64,000 bases of DNA from an uncultured Anaerolineae bacterium (lineage in GTDB: Bacteria; Chloroflexota; Anaerolineae; J036; Brachytrichaceae): the NCBI GenBank assembly GCA_938028725.1, contig CALIMH010000009.1, positions 181,012-245,011 of the forward strand, written 5' to 3'. The notes under the pieces are model-generated. The model was not told the DNA's origin and searched no databases. It saw only the letters and a list, made by a program, of their open reading frames with translations. Below are positions 15,426-29,596 of this stretch, piece after piece. Both the position numbers and the translations under genes were made by a program. Within the stretch, counting starts at the first letter, position 1. Every line of letters starts with the position of its first letter.

Positions 15426-16194
15426 ACTTCAATAGGGCTACGCCTTTTCAGACGTGGAGGCCCGTAACGCAAGATCCATCCTGCGACCTGCGCCCCGGCT
15501 TCAAATGGGATCACGCATTCTAGCGTGGAAATCGCCCGACCGAGGGGCAGGCGCAACATAGAGGGTAGGCGCAGGCAATGCCTGCGCCTACCCCCATGTC
15601 TTGCCCCTGTAGAGAAATGCGCCCGTCATTTCGAGCCTGCGGAGCAGGCGAGAAACCTCAATGGGGCCACGCTTTTTTAGCGTGGAAATCACCTCATCCA
15701 CGCGCCGCCAGCCGCTGTCGGCGTGGCTTCAATGGGGCCACGCCTTTTCAAACGTGGAGACGTACAGCACCAGCTTGCCGTTAAGCTTCAAATACTCGCT
15801 TCAATGGGGCCACGCCTTTTCAGACGTGGAGACTGGTCACCGGCACAGCAAACGCCGCGGCAATGCGACGGCTTCAATGGGGCCACGCCTTTTCAGACGT
15901 GGAGACGTGCCAATGCGTGCGCGCTACTTCCGGCATCATCACGCTTCAATGGGGCCACGCCTTTTCAGACGTGGAGACAAGGTATTACGCGCGCGTGTGT
16001 GAATCGCTTGGCCTGCTTCAATGGGGCCACGCCTTTTCAGACGTGGAGACGACCCATACCACCCCGAACGACATTCAGATCGCCCCGCTTCAATGGGGCC
16101 ACGCCTTTTCAGACGTGGAGACAACGCCGCCTGCGCGCACGACGTATGCGCGTCGCAAGCTTCAATGGGGCCACGCCTTTTCAGACGTGGAGAC
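15426..16194 (-). CRISPR. CRISPR array, type I-G, seven good repeats plus three degenerate
   Basis: Seven 36-nt repeats start at 15726, 15798, 15871, 15943, 16015, 16087 and 16159, separated by unique spacers of 36-37 nt. On the plus strand they start GCTTCAATGGGGCCACGCC and end CAGACGTGGAGAC. The first has one substitution (CAAACG). Three older copies are degenerate: 15426-15461, 15498-15533 and 15656-15689. The spacer between the last two is about 122 nt and contains a perfect palindrome and other inserted sequence. Read on the minus strand the repeat ends in ATTGAAGC, the usual crRNA 5' handle, and contains the stem CCACG/CGTGG. So transcription is on the minus strand, like the cas genes, with decay at the trailer end as expected. 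Confidence 0.97.
15563..15593. repeat. Perfect 15-bp palindrome inside the decayed array end
   Basis: GGGTAGGCGCAGGCA and TGCCTGCGCCTACCC form a perfect 15-bp inverted repeat around a single A. It lies in the expanded interval between two degenerate CRISPR repeats, so it was probably inserted there. Just after it, at about 15630-15655, is CATTTCGAGC...GCGAGAAA, which resembles a dispersed bacterial repeat. No T tract follows on either strand, so a REP-like or miniature mobile element fits better than a terminator. Confidence 0.6.
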
Positions 16195-16528: not shown

Positions 16529-16819
16529 TCAGACGACCACCGCGCCTTGTCGCATCGGCGGATACGGCCGCCCTACCGCGTAGACGCGCTGTTCGTCCAC
16601 CCCACCCATCGGCCCAAGTGGTAGAAACAGCACCTGATCCTCGTTATGCTTGATCGCACTCGACAGTTTCTCGATTAGCGCGATGCGTTCGCGATCGGAC
16701 AAAGCACAGCGAAACACCGAATACTGCAAGCGATCGCCGTGTCCACACATCAGCTTGAAGACCTTGCGCCAGCGGCGGTCGTTGGCGATATCGTAAGTGA
16801 CAATGTAGAGTGTGCGCAT
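16529..16819 (-). CDS. cas2: CRISPR-associated endonuclease Cas2
   Basis: A normal-length Cas2 of 96 residues. It starts MRTLYIVTYDIANDRRWRKV, with the conserved Asp of the YDI motif in the ferredoxin-like fold, followed by GDRLQYSVFRCALSDRERIA and the beta-strand DQVLFLPLGP. Cas2 normally bridges two Cas1 dimers during spacer integration. Here its partner gene directly upstream is destroyed, so the protein probably has no integration complex unless Cas1 is supplied from elsewhere in the genome. It is the last cas gene before the array. Confidence 0.95.
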   Translation of the reverse strand: MRTLYIVTYDIANDRRWRKVFKLMCGHGDRLQYSVFRCALSDRERIALIEKLSSAIKHNEDQVLFLPLGPMGGVDEQRVYAVGRPYPPMRQGAVVV

Positions 16820-16840: not shown

Positions 16841-17256
16841 TCAACGCGTCGTGAATGCCGGGTATGCGGCGATCTCACCAGTGAGGGCGCGCCCAAGCAG
16901 GCGCAACTGTACTTCCAGCACCCGTCGGTAGCTGATGCGGTAGCCGAAGATCGGGTGCATGATCTCCGAATCGAGCCGGCTCTCGAAGGCCTGGATGAAC
17001 TTTTTGCGGCCGGCCGGCGCGAGTGCCACAGCCGGGCCGGCGGTGACAAAGTCATCGGGCGACACGATTCCTGTGTTCACTGCGGTCAGCACCACGGAGT
17101 CGGCGATATGGATGGCCTCGCCAGGGGCGTCAGCGGCTGAGGGGAGGGCGCCGCCGGGCTGATCCACAACGCGGTGGCGGAAGCGGCCTTCGGCGGTGTC
17201 GCGTTGTCGGCCCAGTCGCCCTGCACCCACTCCAGGTAGGCCAGGCGTCGGAGGTC
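16841..17256 (-). pseudogene. cas4-cas1 fusion gene, collapsed by deletions and a frameshift
   Basis: Type I-G loci usually encode a Cas4-Cas1 fusion of over 500 residues at this position. Here about 135 codons remain. One frame has [16 protein letters not shown], the Cas4 start just after its first Cys-containing motif. The frame then shifts to [17 protein letters not shown], still Cas4. After GEAIHI it jumps directly to [39 protein letters not shown] and [17 protein letters not shown], the Cas1 C-terminus, ending AAYPAFTTR. The central Cas4 nuclease and nearly all of Cas1, including the catalytic Glu and His, are gone. Only the Asp-containing ADS segment survives. New spacer acquisition by this locus alone should be impossible. 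Confidence 0.9.
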
Positions 17257-17257
17257 G

Positions 17258-18727
17258 TCATTCGTCTGCTGCGGCAAATAGGCCTAGCCCGATATGGCGC
17301 CCTACGCCGAGCGCGAGAGGCCCATGGAATGGTTGTTTGAACTTGATGAGCGCGTGCCAAGCGCTGTAATGCCGAACATACACGGGCATAAAGTAGGCCG
17401 TGGGGTGCGCTGAGCCGGGCCAGAAAGGCGCCTTCTGTAGCCTGACATCCTGCACGATGCTTTCGGGAATGCGCGCGGCCTCCAGCGCCCTGCGCAGCAG
17501 CTTCAGCGCCTTGTGATACTTGCCGTCGTCGTGTCCGGGCAGAACGACCGGCGTCACCGAGAGCCAGGTATTAGCTTCTTTGATGTAACAGCTTAGCAAG
17601 CGAGTGTCCGCTTGATTCAGCTCAGAAGACAGCTCCGCCAACGTAAGCTGGTCTGATTCTCTGACCAAAGGCTTTCCATTGAGCGCGCGTTGCGCCCAGC
17701 TTGCATGTCTGCCATCGCCGCCGACGGGTTCAACGATGAGCACTCTGCGTATCCCGCCATCGGCAAAGCGGTGATTGATCGAGGGCAAGGGCAGGTAGGA
17801 GAAGCGTTCCAGAGGCTGCTCATCGCCCTGAGAGGCGTGGCCGGCGACGAAGCGCTCGATGCCGCCGGGGAATTGGCGCTTGGAGCGCTGCGCAGACACC
17901 AACGCGGCATGACGCGCCATCGCAGCCACGCGCGCGGTCTGGGTGTGCCAGAAGGCGCGGCGTTTCTCGCTTCGCGCCGTCGCCTGGGGAGGAACTAGCG
18001 CGAATGCCGCGAAGGGTCGGCGTTGCCTTCCCTCGTTCCAGGCGTCCTCACGATAAACTATCTCGCGGCACACAAGAGTAGTTCGGTCGGGGATTTCGAA
18101 TCTCTCAGCAAAGCGGAGGCGCGCTTGGTAGAGGGCGAACAGGCTTACGAGGCTTCCCGCTTTGGGCACGCGCAGTCGCCGAGTCCCGGCTTGGTCTGGC
18201 GTGGGGTAGTATCTTTTCCCGCCCAGGCTGTCTAGCTCTGCTGGCGTAAGTAGGCGCGCCTCGCTGACGACCCCATCAACGCTGCGGCCGAGGACGGAGA
18301 GTCGCCTCGTCTCACGTTGTAGTGCCCGGAGGATGCTTTCCTCCAACGTCTCGTTTATTGGCCACAGGTAGTGGAATATCGCGTTCTCCCCCAACCAAAT
18401 AGGCTTTGACATTTTAAGGACAAGCCGCTTTGCACGCTCAGGATATTTGTCTGCGTCGTTGTTCGGCACGTAAATGCCGAGCGGGTTAAGTTCCTGGTGC
18501 GATGGCGCAATGATGAGGGGTGGCTCTTGCCGTTCAAGCCATTCCAGGGCTTTGCGCTTCTGTTCTGGCTGGTCGCCGGCGTAGGCGCCTGTGTAAGCGC
18601 CGGCGACCAACGCTTGGAACAAGCGAAACGGGGAGGGAGGATACTCAACGCCGCCATCTTCGCTGCGCCCGTGCCAAAACTCGCTGAGCGGCCGGATGGT
18701 GATGCAGAGGTACTGTTCGAGCATCAT
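17258..18727 (-). CDS. csb2: Type I-G Cascade subunit Csb2 (Cas5-Cas6 type)
   Basis: A 489-residue protein of the GSU0054/Csb2 family. The N-terminus YLCITIRPLSEFWHGR and VEYPPSPFRLFQALVAGA is the Cas5-like part that begins all members. The C-terminal part ends with the glycine-rich loop GPLALGVGRHIGLGLF, typical for Cas6-like RAMP domains. In type I-G this fused protein is believed to process pre-crRNA and cap the crRNA 5' end in the surveillance complex. Its ATG overlaps the csb1 stop as ATGA. The reading frame is intact, in contrast to the wrecked cas4-cas1 directly after its stop. Confidence 0.93.
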   Translation of the reverse strand: MMLEQYLCITIRPLSEFWHGRSEDGGVEYPPSPFRLFQALVAGAYTGAYAGDQPEQKRKALEWLERQEPPLIIAPSHQELNPLGIYVPNNDADKYPERAKRLVLKMSKPIWLGENAIFHYLWPINETLEESILRALQRETRRLSVLGRSVDGVVSEARLLTPAELDSLGGKRYYPTPDQAGTRRLRVPKAGSLVSLFALYQARLRFAERFEIPDRTTLVCREIVYREDAWNEGRQRRPFAAFALVPPQATARSEKRRAFWHTQTARVAAMARHAALVSAQRSKRQFPGGIERFVAGHASQGDEQPLERFSYLPLPSINHRFADGGIRRVLIVEPVGGDGRHASWAQRALNGKPLVRESDQLTLAELSSELNQADTRLLSCYIKEANTWLSVTPVVLPGHDDGKYHKALKLLRRALEAARIPESIVQDVRLQKAPFWPGSAHPTAYFMPVYVRHYSAWHALIKFKQPFHGPLALGVGRHIGLGLFAAADE

Positions 18728-19836
18728 TCAGATACCTTCCTTTTGCCCCGCGCCTTCGTGCGTTCTTTCTCTGGCTTAGCAAGCTGCTCCCTTGCTCGCT
18801 TGGCATCAAAGACTAACTCGCGGGATTCGCCCACGCCGAAATCGGAGGCGCACTGACGCGCAAAATCAAGCGCCTCTTGATGAGAAATCTCAAAAAGCGC
18901 GCGCCGCCCGTCGGTGTAGACGCATTCCAGCTTCGGCGGTCGCTGCGCGTCCCTGACCAACAGGCAACCCTCGCGCAGATTGCCATCCTGCGGCATCGTC
19001 AAGGCCACCAGCCCAAGCCCAAGGATGTATCTTCGTAGCTTTCTAGTGTTCTCTTCATTGTCGGCCGACAGCGCTCGAATTGCCACGAGGTTTAAGCGTG
19101 CATCGCGGCGAATTTCGCCGTTCTCGCGCAAGACGACGCCGCCGGGCGACCAGGATGAAGGCACGTCGAGAAATCCTTGCTCGGAGTAGGCTTTCTTATT
19201 TTCGGAGTCCGGCTCGTCCAGCAGGCCTTCATCAATATAGCGCACGGGCGGGCGATATTGCGCCGAGCGGTGCAACGGCGCAATGTCAAAAGCGCGGATC
19301 TCCGAGCCGAATACGCGCTGGATTTTGATCTGCGTGCCGCGCGAGTCCCAGCACCCGAAGAGGATGGATGTCGGCGCGATCTTCGCCAGAGGCACATAGT
19401 CTGCGCGTTCTGAGATGGCTAGAAAGGCTTCTTTCAGCTCTCCATTCGCGTCTGAGAAGCGAACCAGAGCGTCTGCCGCGCGATGGCCGACGTCGAGCAA
19501 ATTCACGCTTGCGTCGTCACCTTCTCTGAGCTTGATGCGAACTTGAGGCACGAGGTCGCAATACGGTTTGTACTTGAATTTCGGTTCGAGACGATTCGCC
19601 TGCGAACCAATCGTGTCAACCAAGCAGACTTTTCTGCCGTCCGGCAAAACATCAATGTTGTAACCAAGCCACTCGCCGCTGAATCCATCTTGAGGTCTGG
19701 GAAAGGTCGGTGGGAAGAACACTGCGTCTCGGCCTTGATCGGGCAACAGCCACTCTCGCAGGACGATAGCAGCAATGCCATCGCTCTCGTCGAGCAGATC
19801 ATCGAAACGTGAAACGAGGTTGTTCTGGTCGCTCAT
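18724..19836 (-). CDS. csb1: Type I-G Cascade backbone subunit Csb1 (Cas7)
   Basis: A 370-residue protein of the GSU0053/Csb1 family, the Cas7-like backbone that coats the crRNA in type I-G. The N-terminal half contains AVFFPPTFPRPQDGF and the family signature CLVDTIGSQANRLEPKF. Later segments are ILFGCWDSRGTQIKIQR and VFGSEIRAFDIAPLHRSAQY. The C-terminus is lysine/arginine-rich (EKERTKARGKRK). The frame is intact and has normal length. The stop overlaps the csb2 start; 25 bases separate its start from the csb3 stop. Confidence 0.94.
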   Translation of the reverse strand: MSDQNNLVSRFDDLLDESDGIAAIVLREWLLPDQGRDAVFFPPTFPRPQDGFSGEWLGYNIDVLPDGRKVCLVDTIGSQANRLEPKFKYKPYCDLVPQVRIKLREGDDASVNLLDVGHRAADALVRFSDANGELKEAFLAISERADYVPLAKIAPTSILFGCWDSRGTQIKIQRVFGSEIRAFDIAPLHRSAQYRPPVRYIDEGLLDEPDSENKKAYSEQGFLDVPSSWSPGGVVLRENGEIRRDARLNLVAIRALSADNEENTRKLRRYILGLGLVALTMPQDGNLREGCLLVRDAQRPPKLECVYTDGRRALFEISHQEALDFARQCASDFGVGESRELVFDAKRAREQLAKPEKERTKARGKRKVSE

Positions 19837-19861: not shown

Positions 19862-20623
19862 TCATTCGACAACCTGAGATTGCCCCAGGGCTTTGTAACG
19901 CTCGCCTTCATCGCGAAATTTAATGGGGAAGGCATACATACGGCGCTTAACGAACCAGAGCCTTTCGTCGGTGAGGGACGCAATCAGAATCGGCAAGGGC
20001 TCGGACCACGTGAAACAGACCCATTGTTTGAGCGTCTCGTCCCAGCTGGGCCTGAATCGTTGTATGCCGACGAGCGCAAAGAACTCAACGGCCGGATAAA
20101 CCACCGGCTTCAGGCCCTGGTCGTTCATCGAGAAACCGATATCTATGCTCGTCAACCTGCTCAATCGGGTGTTGAATGCAGTTGCCGCGACTGCTTCTCC
20201 CTTGTCATCGCGCAGCCTCACGCCCCAGTCAAATATCTCGGCAGGTGAGCGGTCGTCCTGATAATCGCCTAACGCCCTTTTCAGCAGCGGAACTATCTTG
20301 CCGATCTGCTGCTGTCCGGCCCAGGTCTTCAGAGAATTGTCCGCCACCCACCAATTGAGAACCAGCGGATCGCTGCGCCCTGGTAACTGAAGCGAGATTG
20401 CCTCTGTTTGCTCATCTACAGGTAGCTCAGCCTTGCGCAGCGCCTCTAAAACGCCCGGCAGGTCATGCCCAGACCCGGTGATGACGAACTCGGTATCTTC
20501 CCGGCAAAAGTGGGCCATCACGCTGCCATCAGGCTTGAGCTGATGGGCGATCTCAAACACGCCATAGCAGGCGAGCAGATGCCCCGTGTTTTTGGGATTC
20601 AGCTTCAAGCGAATCTCGGCCAC
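19862..20623 (-). CDS. csb3: Type I-G CRISPR-associated protein Csb3
   Basis: A 253-residue Csb3-like protein, found between cas3 and csb1 in this subtype and thought to take the large-subunit (Cas8-like) place in the complex. Visible segments are RLKLNPKNTGHLLACYGVFE at the N-terminus, LVLNWWVADNSLKTWAGQQ in the middle and AVEFFALVGIQRFRPSWDE towards the end. I assign it from these segments and its position; the family is divergent and I cannot point to catalytic residues. The frame is intact and lies three bases after the HD nuclease gene. Confidence 0.85.
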   Translation of the reverse strand: MAEIRLKLNPKNTGHLLACYGVFEIAHQLKPDGSVMAHFCREDTEFVITGSGHDLPGVLEALRKAELPVDEQTEAISLQLPGRSDPLVLNWWVADNSLKTWAGQQQIGKIVPLLKRALGDYQDDRSPAEIFDWGVRLRDDKGEAVAATAFNTRLSRLTSIDIGFSMNDQGLKPVVYPAVEFFALVGIQRFRPSWDETLKQWVCFTWSEPLPILIASLTDERLWFVKRRMYAFPIKFRDEGERYKALGQSQVVE

Positions 20624-20626
20624 CGA

Positions 20627-22144
20627 TCAACCCTCCATGTTGGGATCGCGCTCGTTCGAGGCAAGCACATCCGCGATGTGGATCAGCCCTTCCAACCAGG
20701 CTAACGCCCACCAACCGTATTGGCGTTGCAGCCGCTCGAACCGCAACGCGGCTTCTAGGATGTATTGGCGATTGACTTCTTCGTCATATTCGTCGTCTAA
20801 AGCGGATTCGCGAAAAAGGGGCCTCGACCAGCCATGGTGCGCGGCGATGAGATGCAGCGCAAGATCATCGCTAACCTCCCCCTTCTCTTGCGCTTCTATC
20901 AGCGAGCCAAGCTCATGCCGATACCCCCTCAGACGCCTGGCGTCCATGCCGCGCCGTCCCGCCTTGGCCCAGGCGGGCTGCTGTGGGAAGCCTGTGTTGA
21001 AAACGGCGCGCTGCCAGATGCGGCGCGCTTTGCCCGGATCATGGTGTTTCGCGCCAACTTTCAGCGCCCTGGCTACCTCATCGGGCAAACCGAGTTTGCG
21101 CGCGAGGACCTCCGCCCACTGCTCGGCCAACGCGCAGTGGTCATCCACCGTCGGCGGTTGGTCGTAGGCAAGCGTTTCGACCTGCTGCGACCTGCCAAAA
21201 TCGCTCACGGCCAAAACGAGCGCTTCGTGGCAAACCCAATCCTCTCCTTGCTGGGAAGCCTCGTAGCGCGTCGGCAAGAGCAAAGCGAGCCTGAGGTTGT
21301 TGCCTGATGCTTCTGAGAGCTTGCGCAGCGCGCGCTCTGCGGCCTCGTCCACCTCCCAGCTTGTTTCGTCTGTCTGGTCAGGCAAGTCCTCGCATATCCA
21401 CTCGGCTTTCTCGTTCGCGTTGTTCCACCGTCCCACTTGCCAAACTTCGCGCTCGGCATCCCAGCGCACTAAGCACCGCACAGGAGCGCTCCCTGCTTTT
21501 ACCTTTTCAAGCACATCAGGGACGGGCGTTGTGCTCTCCGGCTTGAGCAATCCCTGGGTGTCTAGCCCCCCGCAGGAAGGCGGTAACACAACGGTCGCGT
21601 AGTAAAGCTCGCTTTCATTCGAGATGTCGGCGAGCCGCTTCGCCTCAACCTTGCCGTTTGCAAAGATGAATATGGCATGCCGGTTCTTGTCCCGCTTGGC
21701 GATTTCCTGCAGCGCGTGATACACGTTTGATGCGCTTTCGCGCAGGCGCTCGTGGCTGCGGATCGGCGCGATCTCAAACCACTGCTCTAGCGCTTCGGCC
21801 TTATCCGCTTCGTTGCTCATCTTGGACACCGCCTCGGCCAGCTCCACTTCGGCTCGCCACGCTACGAATGCCTCAGGCGGCTCCCCGGTTAGGCCGTGAA
21901 GGTAGGCGGAAATGTTCTCCCTGCGCGCGATTGTCGTCGCAGACCAGCGGTCAATGGTGAGAGCGTCCAACTGAAGCGCAGCGGGAGATGCGTCAAATGC
22001 CTGCGGAGGAAACTGTATGGACGACAGAGCGAGTGGACTCACATCGATTAAGCCGTCTGTGGCCTTGTACTTCTCGAGCGTCTTCAGGACTAGAGTTGTG
22101 GAGCTTCCCTCTGCCTCTTTCTTCTTTCGCTGCTTCTTATACAT
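20627..22144 (-). CDS. Cas3'' HD nuclease part of a split type I-G Cas3
   Basis: This 505-residue ORF carries the C-terminal half of a type I-G Cas3. The HD nuclease motifs are near the C-terminus: KHHDPGKARR with the His-Asp pair at about residues 367-369, GYRHELGS near 409, IAAHHGWSRP near 436 and a terminal HIADVLAS with Asp near 492. The preceding 350 residues match no motif I can name but belong to the linker region of these long Cas3 proteins. It starts at 22144, only three bases after the stop of the helicase ORF. Its start RKKKEAEGSSTTL is a near copy, in another frame, of the helicase C-terminus. Degradation of unwound target DNA is the expected role. Confidence 0.88.
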   Translation of the reverse strand: MYKKQRKKKEAEGSSTTLVLKTLEKYKATDGLIDVSPLALSSIQFPPQAFDASPAALQLDALTIDRWSATTIARRENISAYLHGLTGEPPEAFVAWRAEVELAEAVSKMSNEADKAEALEQWFEIAPIRSHERLRESASNVYHALQEIAKRDKNRHAIFIFANGKVEAKRLADISNESELYYATVVLPPSCGGLDTQGLLKPESTTPVPDVLEKVKAGSAPVRCLVRWDAEREVWQVGRWNNANEKAEWICEDLPDQTDETSWEVDEAAERALRKLSEASGNNLRLALLLPTRYEASQQGEDWVCHEALVLAVSDFGRSQQVETLAYDQPPTVDDHCALAEQWAEVLARKLGLPDEVARALKVGAKHHDPGKARRIWQRAVFNTGFPQQPAWAKAGRRGMDARRLRGYRHELGSLIEAQEKGEVSDDLALHLIAAHHGWSRPLFRESALDDEYDEEVNRQYILEAALRFERLQRQYGWWALAWLEGLIHIADVLASNERDPNMEG

Positions 22145-22147
22145 GTC

Positions 22148-23494
22148 TTAATTATAACCCATCTCGCCGAAAAGTTGTGGGGCTTCCCTCTGCCTCTTTC
22201 TTTTTCCCTGCTTCTTCTTGCCTTGCTCTGAGTTGTCGGTAGTTTCCTCTCCGTCTTGGGTATCATCGCTTCCCGGCTTGGCCTCTTTGAGCTGCTTCGG
22301 CTTGTAAACCACGTGCACATCAGCGGCGTCGTGCTTGCCGCGGCGATTGACGCGCCCCAGACGTTGGATGAACCGATCGGCAGGCTGCAGATCGCAGATC
22401 AGGTGATCGGCGTCGAGGTCGAGTCCCACTTCTCCCGCCGCATTTGCGACGAGATAGACGCTCTGCGTGACAGCTTCTGAGTTAAGGAAGGCGCGATAGA
22501 TTGGGGAGTTACGCAACATTTGATCGCGCTCGAACCCGCGCACGGTGCCGGTGAGCGCAGTCACTCGCTTTTCGTCGCCGATGCCTTTCGCTATCTGCTC
22601 GGCAATCTTCCGAACGGACTGGGGCGAGTGAACGTAAATCAGCACCCTTGCCTTTTTGTCCTTGTACTCTAGGGCGATCTGGGCAATCTCCTCCTCTACA
22701 GAGCTGGTGTCTTTCACAGGCACGAGCCTGCAGCGCTTCTTGGCCTCAAGGCGAAGCTTGACAAATTCATCTTCTTTGTCCTCCTCCTCAAGCTTGAAGA
22801 TGTCCTCGTCAGCTTTCTCAGTGAGCGTGGCCGACAACTGCAATACTTTGAAAGGCTTGAATCCCTTACCTTTCTGCTGCTGCTCGACCGCGCGCAGCAG
22901 ATTGCTGAATGCGGGCGCAAGATGCGCCTCGTCGTGCACGATCAGCGCATCGTGGCCGACCAAGCCTGCGTGAAAGGGGCGCATTTTGTAGCTATCTCCA
23001 TACCCTGAGAAAGTCAGCTTGCTGCCGATCATGTCTATCGTTCCCACCACGATGGCAGGGCGGCAGGGGTCTAGCTTCCATTCCTCGTTATCGGCCAGTT
23101 CGCCGCGCAGGGTGCTGATCCCGACGACGGGCAGGCCAGGCACAGCGGCCAAAGCAGCAAGGGCGTTCTTGACAGCAGAGCTATCGCTCGATTCCAGCTT
23201 CTGGAGAATTTGGACGCAAACTTCTGTCGCCTGATCAACCACCGTGCGGCGATTCACTATGTAGACAAGTCGCCGGGGCAATGCTGGCGCGCCTGACCTA
23301 GCCTGGTAGGCAAGGGCGATGAGCCAAATTGGGATCACCGTTGTCTTGCCCAGGCCCGTCGGCAGGATACAGGCGTCCGGGATGCGGTTTGTGACGAAGC
23401 GAAGAAAGAGCCGCTTTTGCCACCGCAGCGGTGGGAAGCCCATAAGTGTCTCGAACGCTTCTACGAAGAAATTCTCAGCATCTTGTAGGTTCAT
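22148..23494 (-). CDS. cas3: Cas3' helicase part of a split type I-G Cas3
   Basis: A 448-residue SF2 helicase. Motif I is CILPTGLGKTTV (residues 43-53), motif II is LIVHDEAHLAP with DEAH at 188-191, motif III is LQLSATLTE, and motif VI is DRFIQRLGRVNRRGK, all intact. It lacks the HD domain, which follows in the next ORF. It ends in a basic tail (KKKQGKRKRQREAPQLF) that comes from a local duplication. In type I-G the two activities are usually one polypeptide. It is the first gene of the operon; its start is 28 bases from a repeat-like element and about 160 bases from the -10 box. Confidence 0.92.
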   Translation of the reverse strand: MNLQDAENFFVEAFETLMGFPPLRWQKRLFLRFVTNRIPDACILPTGLGKTTVIPIWLIALAYQARSGAPALPRRLVYIVNRRTVVDQATEVCVQILQKLESSDSSAVKNALAALAAVPGLPVVGISTLRGELADNEEWKLDPCRPAIVVGTIDMIGSKLTFSGYGDSYKMRPFHAGLVGHDALIVHDEAHLAPAFSNLLRAVEQQQKGKGFKPFKVLQLSATLTEKADEDIFKLEEEDKEDEFVKLRLEAKKRCRLVPVKDTSSVEEEIAQIALEYKDKKARVLIYVHSPQSVRKIAEQIAKGIGDEKRVTALTGTVRGFERDQMLRNSPIYRAFLNSEAVTQSVYLVANAAGEVGLDLDADHLICDLQPADRFIQRLGRVNRRGKHDAADVHVVYKPKQLKEAKPGSDDTQDGEETTDNSEQGKKKQGKRKRQREAPQLFGEMGYN

Positions 23495-23522: not shown

Positions 23523-23615
23523 CACTCAATGGGGCCGCGCACAGAAGAATGCGCGGAGGTTCGAGTGCTTCTTCACAGATGGACAGTAGCACCCTGATCT
23601 TCAATGGGGCCGCCG
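23523..23615 (-). ncRNA. Vestigial two-repeat mini-CRISPR, CreR-like cas-repressing guide RNA
   Basis: Upstream of cas3 lie two degenerate copies of the locus's own CRISPR repeat in the same orientation as the array. The copy at 23523-23560 keeps CTCAATGGGGCC and a changed but perfect stem (CCGCGCA/TGCGCGG). The copy at 23598-23615 keeps GCCCCATTGAAG on the minus strand, which is the crRNA 5' handle. Between them are exactly 37 nt, a normal spacer length. Read on the minus strand this spacer begins TCAGGGTGCTACTGT and matches the cas promoter. Known CreR/CreA RNAs of other type I systems have this structure and guide Cascade to a promoter without cleavage. There is no toxin ORF in the interval, so a CreR role fits better than a CreTA addiction module. 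Confidence 0.8.
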
Positions 23616-23656
23616 GGGCATAGCTGATTGGGCGCATAGCTTCCGCCTTGCCCCTG

Positions 23657-23688
23657 ATTATAGCGCATTATCAGGCTGCTATTGTAAA
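23657..23688 (-). promoter_or_regulatory. cas operon promoter overlapping a Cascade target site
   Basis: On the minus strand a perfect -10 TATAAT lies at 23657-23662 and a -35-like TTTACA at 23683-23688, with a long 20-bp spacing. The plus strand in between, 23671-23685, reads TCAGGCTGCTATTGT and is flanked on its 5' side by TTA (23668-23670). It matches the first 15 nt of the nearby guide at 13 positions; the two mismatches are at guide positions 6 and 12. Cascade bound here would cover the promoter of the guide and of all cas genes. Confidence 0.75.
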
Positions 23689-23811
23689 ACTTAGCAGGAT
23701 GCAGTGCGTGTCACACATACATCACTGGTCCAAGCTTGCCTGGCTGGTAGGCAGCGGTCGAGAGCTTCCCTCGTTTGCTCAGTGCTTCGTAGAGAAAACG
23801 CACCGCCTGCG

Positions 23812-27900: not shown

Positions 27901-28743
27901 TCACGCAATGTAGCTGATTCCCACCGCGCCTGGGCCAGAATGCACGCAGATGGCCGGCCCCGCTTCGATCACCCGGGGCGGATGGATGCCTAGCCGCTCG
28001 GCAAGCTCCTTAGCAAGGTCCTGGGCGAGCTGCTGAGCTGCGGCATGCATCACACAGACCCGAGGGTTCACTACGCCGCTCAGCTCTTTCAAGGCCACCT
28101 CCTTAAGTCGGGCGACTGCTTTGTTAAACGTGCGCACACGCTCTAGCGGCTCAATCCGACCATCGCAGATGGTGAGCAGCGGTTTCATCTGCAACATGTT
28201 GCCGAGCAGCGCACGCACACTGCCAATGCGCCCACCCCGGCGCAGGTTCTCCAACGTCTCCAGCACAAAGTGCATGCGTGTGCGGGGGATGAGAGACTGG
28301 ATGTGCGCGGCGATCTCAGCTGCGCTGTTTACTCCGCGCTTGACCATCTCCACAGCCTCCATTACTAGCAGCGCTGCGCCGGCGCTCACCTGGCGCGTGT
28401 CAATCAGCGTGATGGAAGGCCCTCCTCCCGCTAGGAATCTTGACGCAGCTTCGGCGCTCGAGTATGTGCCGCTCAGCTCGCGCGAGATATGGATGGATAG
28501 CACCTCATCTTCCTTGAAGCGCTCGTAGACTTCGATACAGTCTCCAATTGAAGGCTGTGAGGTTTTAGGAAAGATTGGACTTTCCCGCATCATGCGATGA
28601 AACTCGGACGGCGTAAGCTCCAAGCTGGGGATAGCTTTATCCCCAAACACGACATAAGCCGAGATTACGGCATCTACACCTAGCTCACGAGCCAGTTCAT
28701 GAGTGATGTCCGTGCTCGAATCAGTCACGATTCGGATCGCCAT
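27901..28743 (-). CDS. DegV family protein
   Basis: A 280-residue DegV/FakB-type protein. I chose the start at 28743 (MAIRIVTDSSTDITHELA) because the earlier in-frame codons overlap the preceding gene. Motifs are FPKTSQPSIGDCIEVYERF, LSIHISRELSGTYSSAEAA, TLIDTRQVSAGAALLV and FVLETLENLRRGGRIG. Members bind a fatty acid in a deep pocket and, with FakA, present it for phosphorylation. No fakA lies in this window. The protein is very similar to its neighbour at 28760, so the pair arose by tandem duplication. Confidence 0.93.
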   Translation of the reverse strand: MAIRIVTDSSTDITHELARELGVDAVISAYVVFGDKAIPSLELTPSEFHRMMRESPIFPKTSQPSIGDCIEVYERFKEDEVLSIHISRELSGTYSSAEAASRFLAGGGPSITLIDTRQVSAGAALLVMEAVEMVKRGVNSAAEIAAHIQSLIPRTRMHFVLETLENLRRGGRIGSVRALLGNMLQMKPLLTICDGRIEPLERVRTFNKAVARLKEVALKELSGVVNPRVCVMHAAAQQLAQDLAKELAERLGIHPPRVIEAGPAICVHSGPGAVGISYIA

Positions 28744-28759
28744 ACAAGCCTCCTCTCGT

Positions 28760-29596
28760 TCAGACAATATAGCCCACGCCGACAGCGCCTGGCCCAACAT
28801 GAGTGGCGATGGTAGGGCCGATCTCTAGCATCATCGGCTTCGGCACACCGAGCGCAGCTGCAATGCCGCTTGCCAATGCCTCGCCTAATTGCGGGGCAGC
28901 AGCGTGCAACACAAAAATGCGTAGCTCTGAGACATTGCGCAGGTCGCTCACCACAATCTCTTTTAATCGCTCGACAGCCTTGTTAAACGTGCGCACGCGC
29001 TCCAGCGGCTCAACACGGCCATCCTTGATGGTGAGGATCGGCTTCATCTGCAGCATCGTGCCCAGCAAAGCTTGTGCGCCTCCGATACGCCCGCCACGCC
29101 GCAAGTTTTCCAGCGTCTCTAACACAAAATGCACGCGCGTGCGGGGGATAAGCGATTCAATGCACGACTTGATCTCCTCCACCCTTGCACCCTGTTTGGC
29201 CATCTTCACGGCTTCGAGCACCAGCAGTGCCTGTCCAGCGCTCACTTGGCGGGTGTCGATAATGGTGATGCGCGGATCGCCGTTCATCATTGCTGCTGCT
29301 GCTTCAGCGCTGGCGATCGTGCCGCTCAGTTCACGTGAAATGTGGATCGAGAGTACTTCTTCACCTTTAAATCGCTCATAAACCGCAGCACAATCCCCAA
29401 TGGAAGGTTGAGAGGTTTTAGGGAAGTTTGGGTCGCTCTTCAGCATGGCGTAAAACTCCGCTGGCGTCAGATCGATGCTGCGGAAGGTCTTCTCGCCGAA
29501 GATCACGTAAGTGGACATTATCGCGTCCACACCGAGTTGCTCGGCTAAACGTCGGTCAATGTCGGCGTTTGTGTCAGTGATGATGCGCACAGTCAT
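28760..29596 (-). CDS. DegV family protein
   Basis: A 278-residue paralogue of the downstream gene. It starts MTVRIITDTNADIDRRLA and keeps FPKTSQPSIGDCAAVYERF, LSIHISRELSGTIASAEAA, TIIDTRQVSAGQALLVLEAV and FVLETLENLRRGGRIG. Upstream is a clear AAGGAGG ribosome-binding site 10 bases before the ATG. It is the first gene of a degV-degV-pyk operon and is divergent from the membrane protein gene on the plus strand. The small pocket differences between the two paralogues may reflect different fatty-acid preferences, an inference only. Confidence 0.93.
   Translation of the reverse strand: MTVRIITDTNADIDRRLAEQLGVDAIMSTYVIFGEKTFRSIDLTPAEFYAMLKSDPNFPKTSQPSIGDCAAVYERFKGEEVLSIHISRELSGTIASAEAAAAMMNGDPRITIIDTRQVSAGQALLVLEAVKMAKQGARVEEIKSCIESLIPRTRVHFVLETLENLRRGGRIGGAQALLGTMLQMKPILTIKDGRVEPLERVRTFNKAVERLKEIVVSDLRNVSELRIFVLHAAAPQLGEALASGIAAALGVPKPMMLEIGPTIATHVGPGAVGVGYIV

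Follow-up and report, generated by a model that had tools for sequence, protein, structure and literature searches.

In the window, by which we mean the whole 64,000-nucleotide stretch of DNA analysed (part of contig C9 of genome G000), a mini-CRISPR at positions 23523-23633 lies upstream of the cas3 gene of a type I-G cas operon and is built of two degenerate repeats (psiR1 and psiR2) with a 37-nt spacer between them. Judged from its sequence, this element probably (we put it at roughly 0.86) encodes a CreR-type autorepressor guide, which would steer the type I-G Cascade onto its own likely cas promoter. It has three traits of CreR elements that can be read from sequence: two degenerate repeats and one spacer adjoin the cas genes, the 5′ part of the spacer matches the cas promoter region beside the PAM of the subtype (the promoter being assigned from its TATAAT box only), and guide and target co-vary between related loci.

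The operon is encoded on the minus strand in the order cas3 (as two ORFs), csb3, csb1, csb2, a cas4/1 fragment and cas2; no gap between these genes exceeds 27 nt (Table 1), and the presence of the signature proteins Cas3g, Csb1/Cas7g and Csb2 (TIGR02621, TIGR02570, and TIGR02165) assigns it to type I-G. The cas3 gene is divided into its two ORFs by an in-frame TAA at 22150-22148, and TIGR02621 is over its cut-off when both parts are read together; what we take to be helicase and HD motifs are found on the two parts. A 33-nt direct repeat at 79-nt spacing (22060-22230) adjoins the split. An intact Cas4/1 adaptation gene, which is usual in type I-G and not needed for the subtype assignment, is missing, the C-terminus of Cas1 being what is left of it. 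Because cas4/1 is cut down to this fragment, new spacers can probably not be added unless Cas1 is supplied elsewhere. With its split cas3 and truncated cas4/1, the system of the window may be partly decayed, and both interference and adaptation may be impaired. The spacers of the array are about 36-37 nt long, and its degenerate repeats sit at the cas2-distal end (15426-15690), a position that fits transcription from the minus strand. Contig C1 of the related genome G024 (L066) starts with a syntenic array end carrying similar degenerate repeats. Elsewhere in the window, two adjacent paralogous minus-strand genes (27901-29596), which share about 73% identity over two stretches of DNA, encode what we presume to be DegV-type proteins.

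Table 1. Features of the type I-G locus and of its mini-CRISPR, with coordinates in the window
Feature	Position	Strand	Remarks
CRISPR array	15426-16194	-	seven 36-nt repeats, nearly identical to one another; degenerate copies at the cas2-distal end
cas2	16529-16819	-	TIGR01573 over cut-off
cas4/cas1 fragment	16841-17230	-	only the last 88 of 546 positions of the Cas4g/Cas1g model match
csb2 (Cas5/Cas6 fusion, predicted crRNA-processing enzyme)	17258-18727	-	TIGR02165 positions 1-491 of 492, over cut-off
csb1 (Cas7g)	18724-19836	-	TIGR02570 over cut-off
csb3 (Cas8g2)	19862-20623	-	TIGR04106, 68.7 bits, under its cut-off of 125
cas3g C-terminal part with HD domain	20627-22144	-	TIGR02621 positions 405-853; Cas3_HD
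cas3g N-terminal (helicase) part	22148-23494	-	TIGR02621 positions 2-392
psiR2, degenerate downstream repeat	23560-23523	-	8-bp hairpin, CCCC, ATTGAGTG; 35/40 in G024
spacer (guide), 37 nt	23597-23561	-	begins TCAGGGTGCTACTGT; 37/37 identical in G024
psiR1, degenerate upstream repeat	23633-23598	-	keeps GGCCCC and the handle ATTGAAGA; ends GGCCCC-ATTGAAGA
putative -10 box TATAAT of the cas operon	23657-23662	-	6/6 consensus, identical in G024
PAM TTA (TTN)	23668-23670	+	read from sequence; TTC in G024
promoter target of the spacer seed, TCAGGCTGCTATTGT	23671-23685	+	13/15 match to spacer positions 1-15

Read along the minus strand, TATAAT (23662-23657) is followed by psiR1, the 37-nt spacer, psiR2 and the cas3 ATG at 23494. 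The array repeat is GTCTCCACGTCTGAAAAGGCGTGGCCCCATTGAAGC, with the spacing of hairpin, CCCC and 8 nt, from which it follows that the spacer begins directly after the equivalent of an 8-nt handle. psiR1 retains GGCCCC and ATTGAAG; its stem is weak at best in the window and 5 bp long in G024. As psiR1 in the window has no good hairpin, the way in which the 5′ end of the guide would form is a weak point. The hairpin of psiR2 differs from that of the array with paired changes (by eye), and the psiR2 handle has drifted; its fold, computed on 23523-23562, has a z of -3.61, with 0 of 200 shuffles as good. The whole 128-nt leader folds no better than its shuffles (z -0.70), and an Rfam scan of the window returned no family at gathering scores. 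A DNA search across genomes of the class gave no second match in G000 or G024, and no exact copy of a 26-nt handle-guide stretch was found in viral contigs.

A close examination of the pairing between spacer positions 1-15 and the target revealed mismatches at positions 6 and 12 only, the next ones being at 16, 17, and 19, and the TATAAT box is 5 nt away from the PAM. Promoter scans of the window and of the G024 stretch found no sigma-70-type promoter and no -35 hexamer. The sequence-only reading from which this analysis started had placed repeat-like copies on both sides of a 37-nt spacer upstream of cas3, had read the guide from the minus strand, and had described a 13/15 match in the likely promoter with a TTA PAM that does not continue past position 15. 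The copies are confirmed at their coordinates by direct reading, the orientation and register of the guide are borne out by the 8-nt handle equivalent that precedes the spacer, and the location, PAM, mismatch positions and end of the match all check out.

Such a match is rare by chance. Among dinucleotide-preserving shuffles of 23616-23811 (n = 20000), a TTN-flanked best match of at least 13/15 was obtained once, and 13/13 outside positions 6 and 12 was never reached in these shuffles. Random 15-mers of the window reached 13/15 with TTN in 2 of 39742 cases, and the seven array spacers scored at most 8/15 with TTN and 9/15 without it. TTNTCAGGNTGCTANTGT is matched exactly at one place in the 64-kb window, and TTNTCAGGNTGCTA at one place in each of G000 and G024, in both at the cas promoter; when one mismatch is allowed, TTNTCAGGNTGCTA gives 3 matches in G000 and 3 in G024, compared with 6 and 4 for the reversed control pattern.

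The element recurs in G024, a genome labelled as the same family and a different genus, whose contig stops inside cas3 with the upstream region present. Its spacer is identical to that of the window at 37 of 37 positions, including positions 16-37, for the full conservation of which we found no reason. The target is identical at 13 of 15 positions, with both differences at positions 6 and 12, and matches the guide at 14/15, while the PAM (TTC vs TTA) differs at N only. Independent drift of guide and promoter, which had been named beforehand as evidence against a self-targeting guide, was looked for and not seen: over the 18 nt of PAM and target, changes occur only at the PAM N and at positions 6 and 12, and three changes placed at random would fall on exactly those three of 18 positions in 1 of 816 cases. 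Identity elsewhere amounts to 22 of 74 aligned columns upstream of the target, 1/5 between the PAM and the -10 box, 6/6 in TATAAT, 28/41 in the leader, and 96/100 at the beginning of cas3. In G023, also of this family, a Cas3 stretch is 88% identical, yet the region upstream is a different one; 11.5 kb of this genome were read and yielded no guide core and no guide-target pair. Searches with csb2 and with the C-terminal part of cas3 were empty in G024 and G023, where the cas3 matches run to the contig ends. The DNA search of the class matched 5 of 396 genomes, namely G000, G024 and three weak ones (E of 4e-4 to 4e-3) that were taken as chance.

Searches with the Cas3g model retrieved 25 of 400 genomes of the phylum (E up to 1e-60), 17 of 396 of the class (1e-90), and 8 of 46 of the G202 family (1e-60). 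Eight more type I-G loci have mini-CRISPRs with different guides, each of which matches its own cas upstream region with TTN: six in one genus, g129 (G348, G307, G202, G314, G299, and G742), one in the family of g129 (G064), and one in another family of the phylum (G629). Downstream of the target, the first long ORF encodes Cas3g in two loci (G348 and G307) and Csb1/Cas7g in six, over the NCBIfam cut-offs in each case; in G742 the distance from the target to csb1 is 495 nt. All six g129 loci have TTGACA upstream of the target (by eye). In these eight loci mini-CRISPR and cas genes occupy opposite strands; in the window and G024 they share one. Of the two type I-G loci of G064, the one on C25 (L097 11700-13250) has a CreR-like pair upstream of csb1, and none was found at the one on C77 (L098).

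The genes that follow the target bear on a different role for the guide, that of a CreA antitoxin acting on the promoter of a small RNA toxin (CreTA) instead of on that of the cas genes. CreTA modules do use the same repeat-spacer-repeat design beside cas genes, according to the available text of PMC9458426 and PMC10097628. We nevertheless regard this role as very improbable, since the window leaves only 23 nt from the -10 box to psiR1, the genes further down belong to the cas operon, and the target precedes csb1 or cas3 in the eight further loci; by sequence, no separate toxin transcript from the targeted promoter could be placed in the window, where the 23 nt and then cas3 follow.

The first, strict survey of guide-target pairs accepted a handle core within 1 of 6 bases and 13/13 core matches (or at least 12 in one run), and it found matches in the window, G024 and G348. 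As most pairs have one extra mismatch, this survey was too strict and its low count is no measure of prevalence; it was replaced by a repeat-pair search and a relaxed survey. Once hits with a guide or target 13-mer recurring in the locus had been dropped (raw: 6 in L042, 788 in L044, and 260 in L075), the relaxed survey gave hits in 13 of 36 locus sequences, 15 in total; ten hits were accepted and five were not. One of the five is the first pair of L073, described below. The L055 pair lies inside an array, with guide and target overlapping as an inverted repeat, and no repeat context was seen for the L057 pair and the second pairs of L073 and L095. Repeat pairs in L046 and L096 were rejected, their best matches being 8/15 and 10/15, and those in L042, L098, and L099 were judged to be array or duplicate sequence (by eye). 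The share of 10/36 locus sequences with an accepted pair is a rough lower bound, with upstream sequence absent in L052 and short in L045, L047, and L040, and with L089, L090, and L100 being short contig-end pieces. Since 26 of the 36 are without an accepted pair, the mini-CRISPR design is not general in type I-G.

On Thermus thermophilus plasmids (L073 8620-8900; L104-L108), a possible CreR-like pair is located upstream of a type I-U/I-G cas7-csb2-cas3 operon, with TTTTTGTTGCTCAAA facing a TTC-flanked TTTTTCTTGCTTAAA beside TTGACA and mismatches at positions 6 and 12. Both stretches are unchanged in the 6 records aligned and of low complexity, with the handle GTTGCAGG, and the pair is kept as a candidate only.

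As a matrix control, every guide was compared with all ten upstream regions. Guides score 12-13 of 13 with their own targets in 10/10 cases; among the 88 other pairs, which leave out the two window/G024 cross pairs because the guide is common to both, one reaches 12 and four reach 11, all inside g129, and the maximum between families is 10/13. Own pairs at 12-13 against at most 10 between families indicate that guide and target change together, and the co-variation predicted by the sequence-only reading for related I-G loci is thus seen in eight further loci with different guides.

The selection of the survey ignored positions 6 and 12, and the match was therefore repeated unweighted and PAM-free within 400 nt. 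For 9 of the 10 guides, no other 15-nt stretch matches as well as the TTN-flanked site; the G314 guide matches a CCT-flanked site and the TTN site equally well, at 12/15, and enters the mismatch count with whichever of the two lacks a mismatch at 6 or 12. Mismatches of the top matches fall at 6 or 12 in 13 of 22 cases (as many in 0 of 200000 random placements), in 12 of 21 without G024 (equalled in 0 of 200000), and in 9 of 16 for the seven guides found by repeats alone (1 of 200000), although the g129 genomes are related and these figures are not independent draws. The claim that mismatches are confined to positions 6 and 12 is exact for the window; in related loci an excess there is retained as a preference and exclusivity is lost, the TTN-flanked targets of relatives being mismatched also at 3, 8, 9, and 13.

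All 10 guide-target pairs are inverted repeats at the DNA level, which is also what the two 15-nt stretches would look like if they were paired operator half-sites of a DNA-binding regulator, with the repeat-like flanks as relics. A common protein operator would be one sequence, yet the loci differ from one another while guide and target agree at each locus, and half-sites would account neither for the handle register nor for the TTN flank or the surplus of mismatches at 6 and 12, so that we give this possibility slightly less credence than a toxin-antitoxin role. The same low credence goes to a decayed array remnant with an accidental self-derived spacer, functionless now: the truncated adaptation module and the degenerate copies in the array fit a partly decayed locus, but a self-acquired spacer would match over its full length whereas the match stops at 15 in both genomes, an identical spacer (37/37) stands beside a leader at 28/41, and other loci have different guides matching their own upstream regions.

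If the element encodes a CreR-type autorepressor guide, as we prefer, its transcript would be cut by Csb2 at psiR2 and perhaps psiR1, and the guide would load the type I-G Cascade (Csb1, Csb2, and Csb3). The 13 matched bases and the TTA PAM would steer Cascade to the site beside the -10 box, likely blocking transcription, and binding at this partly matched site would presumably proceed without attack by Cas3. Repression could be lifted by array crRNAs or anti-CRISPRs that draw Cascade away; for CreR, the available text of PMC12737573, PMC13131331, and PMC12948488 describes competition by crRNAs and relief of repression by anti-CRISPRs. In the type I-G system studied in PMC9638904, as far as its available text goes, cleavage falls 4 nt 3′ of the repeat hairpin and gives an 8-nt handle, every sixth base flips out, and the PAM is TTN. 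The spacing of hairpin, CCCC and 8-nt handle, the TTN PAM and the flipped sixth base agree with that text, which supports the guide reading.

With the guide in the predicted leader of the cas mRNA in the window, guide and Cas proteins would come from one promoter in a self-limiting loop. The initial proposal of a guide transcribed from its own target promoter fits the layout of the window and of G024, and does not carry over to the other eight loci with their opposite strand. We lean slightly toward a broader picture in which type I-G runs on CreR guides (three families, with guides that vary independently) and in which, for the leader guide of the window lineage, a cut by Csb2 would free both the guide and a translatable cas mRNA. 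Were a leader guide released in this way, the immune operon would be a self-metering transcript.

The survey of Shmakov et al. (2023) reportedly covers crRNA-like elements and mini-arrays as well as standalone repeats in cas loci that partly match cas promoters, and the present element resembles these in its standalone repeats in a cas locus and its partial match to the cas promoter. A literature search for CreR, CreTA and mini-arrays gave no type I-G case among the matches listed, and in one complete listing of 11 papers a Cre term co-occurs with "type I-G" in a single paper, there in a reference title; an earlier listing in Liu 2023 or Shmakov 2023 is possible. The present case would extend RNA-guided cas autorepression to type I-G, the Cascade structure of which has no Cas5 on the crRNA handle (available text of PMC9638904). 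With ten guide-target pairs available, the rules that govern seed pairing, base flipping and PAM choice in type I-G can be tested directly, and tools for type I-G gene control could be modelled on the natural repressing guides. If it behaves like CreR, the circuit would respond to anti-CRISPRs and to the supply of crRNA as well.

Among known systems, CreTA has repeats of which psiR1 keeps the handle and psiR2 the hairpin (PMC9458426), and in the I-F CreTA of Acinetobacter pairing skips positions 6, 11, and 18 (PMC9458426, PMC10097628), according to the available text of these sources. The element of the window is like CreTA, as described there, in its psiR1 with handle and psiR2 with hairpin, its psiR1-spacer-psiR2 layout and its PAM-flanked partial match, and unlike it in that the target precedes cas genes and, in the window, the target promoter and psiR1 leave no room between them for a toxin transcript. 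CreR has been named for types I-B, I-E, and V-A (Liu et al. 2023, as quoted in the available text of PMC13131331, PMC12737573, and PMC12948488). In line with CreR as portrayed in these texts, the element is a mini-CRISPR near cas genes with a spacer partly complementary to the cas promoter and a predicted autorepression by the cognate effector; it differs from the cases given there in its type I-G effector (Csb1, Csb2, and Csb3) and in that the guide of the window is on the cas strand, inside the predicted cas leader. The type I-G case would accordingly appear distinct from known CreR by its effector subtype and, in the window lineage, by a guide placed within the predicted cas leader.
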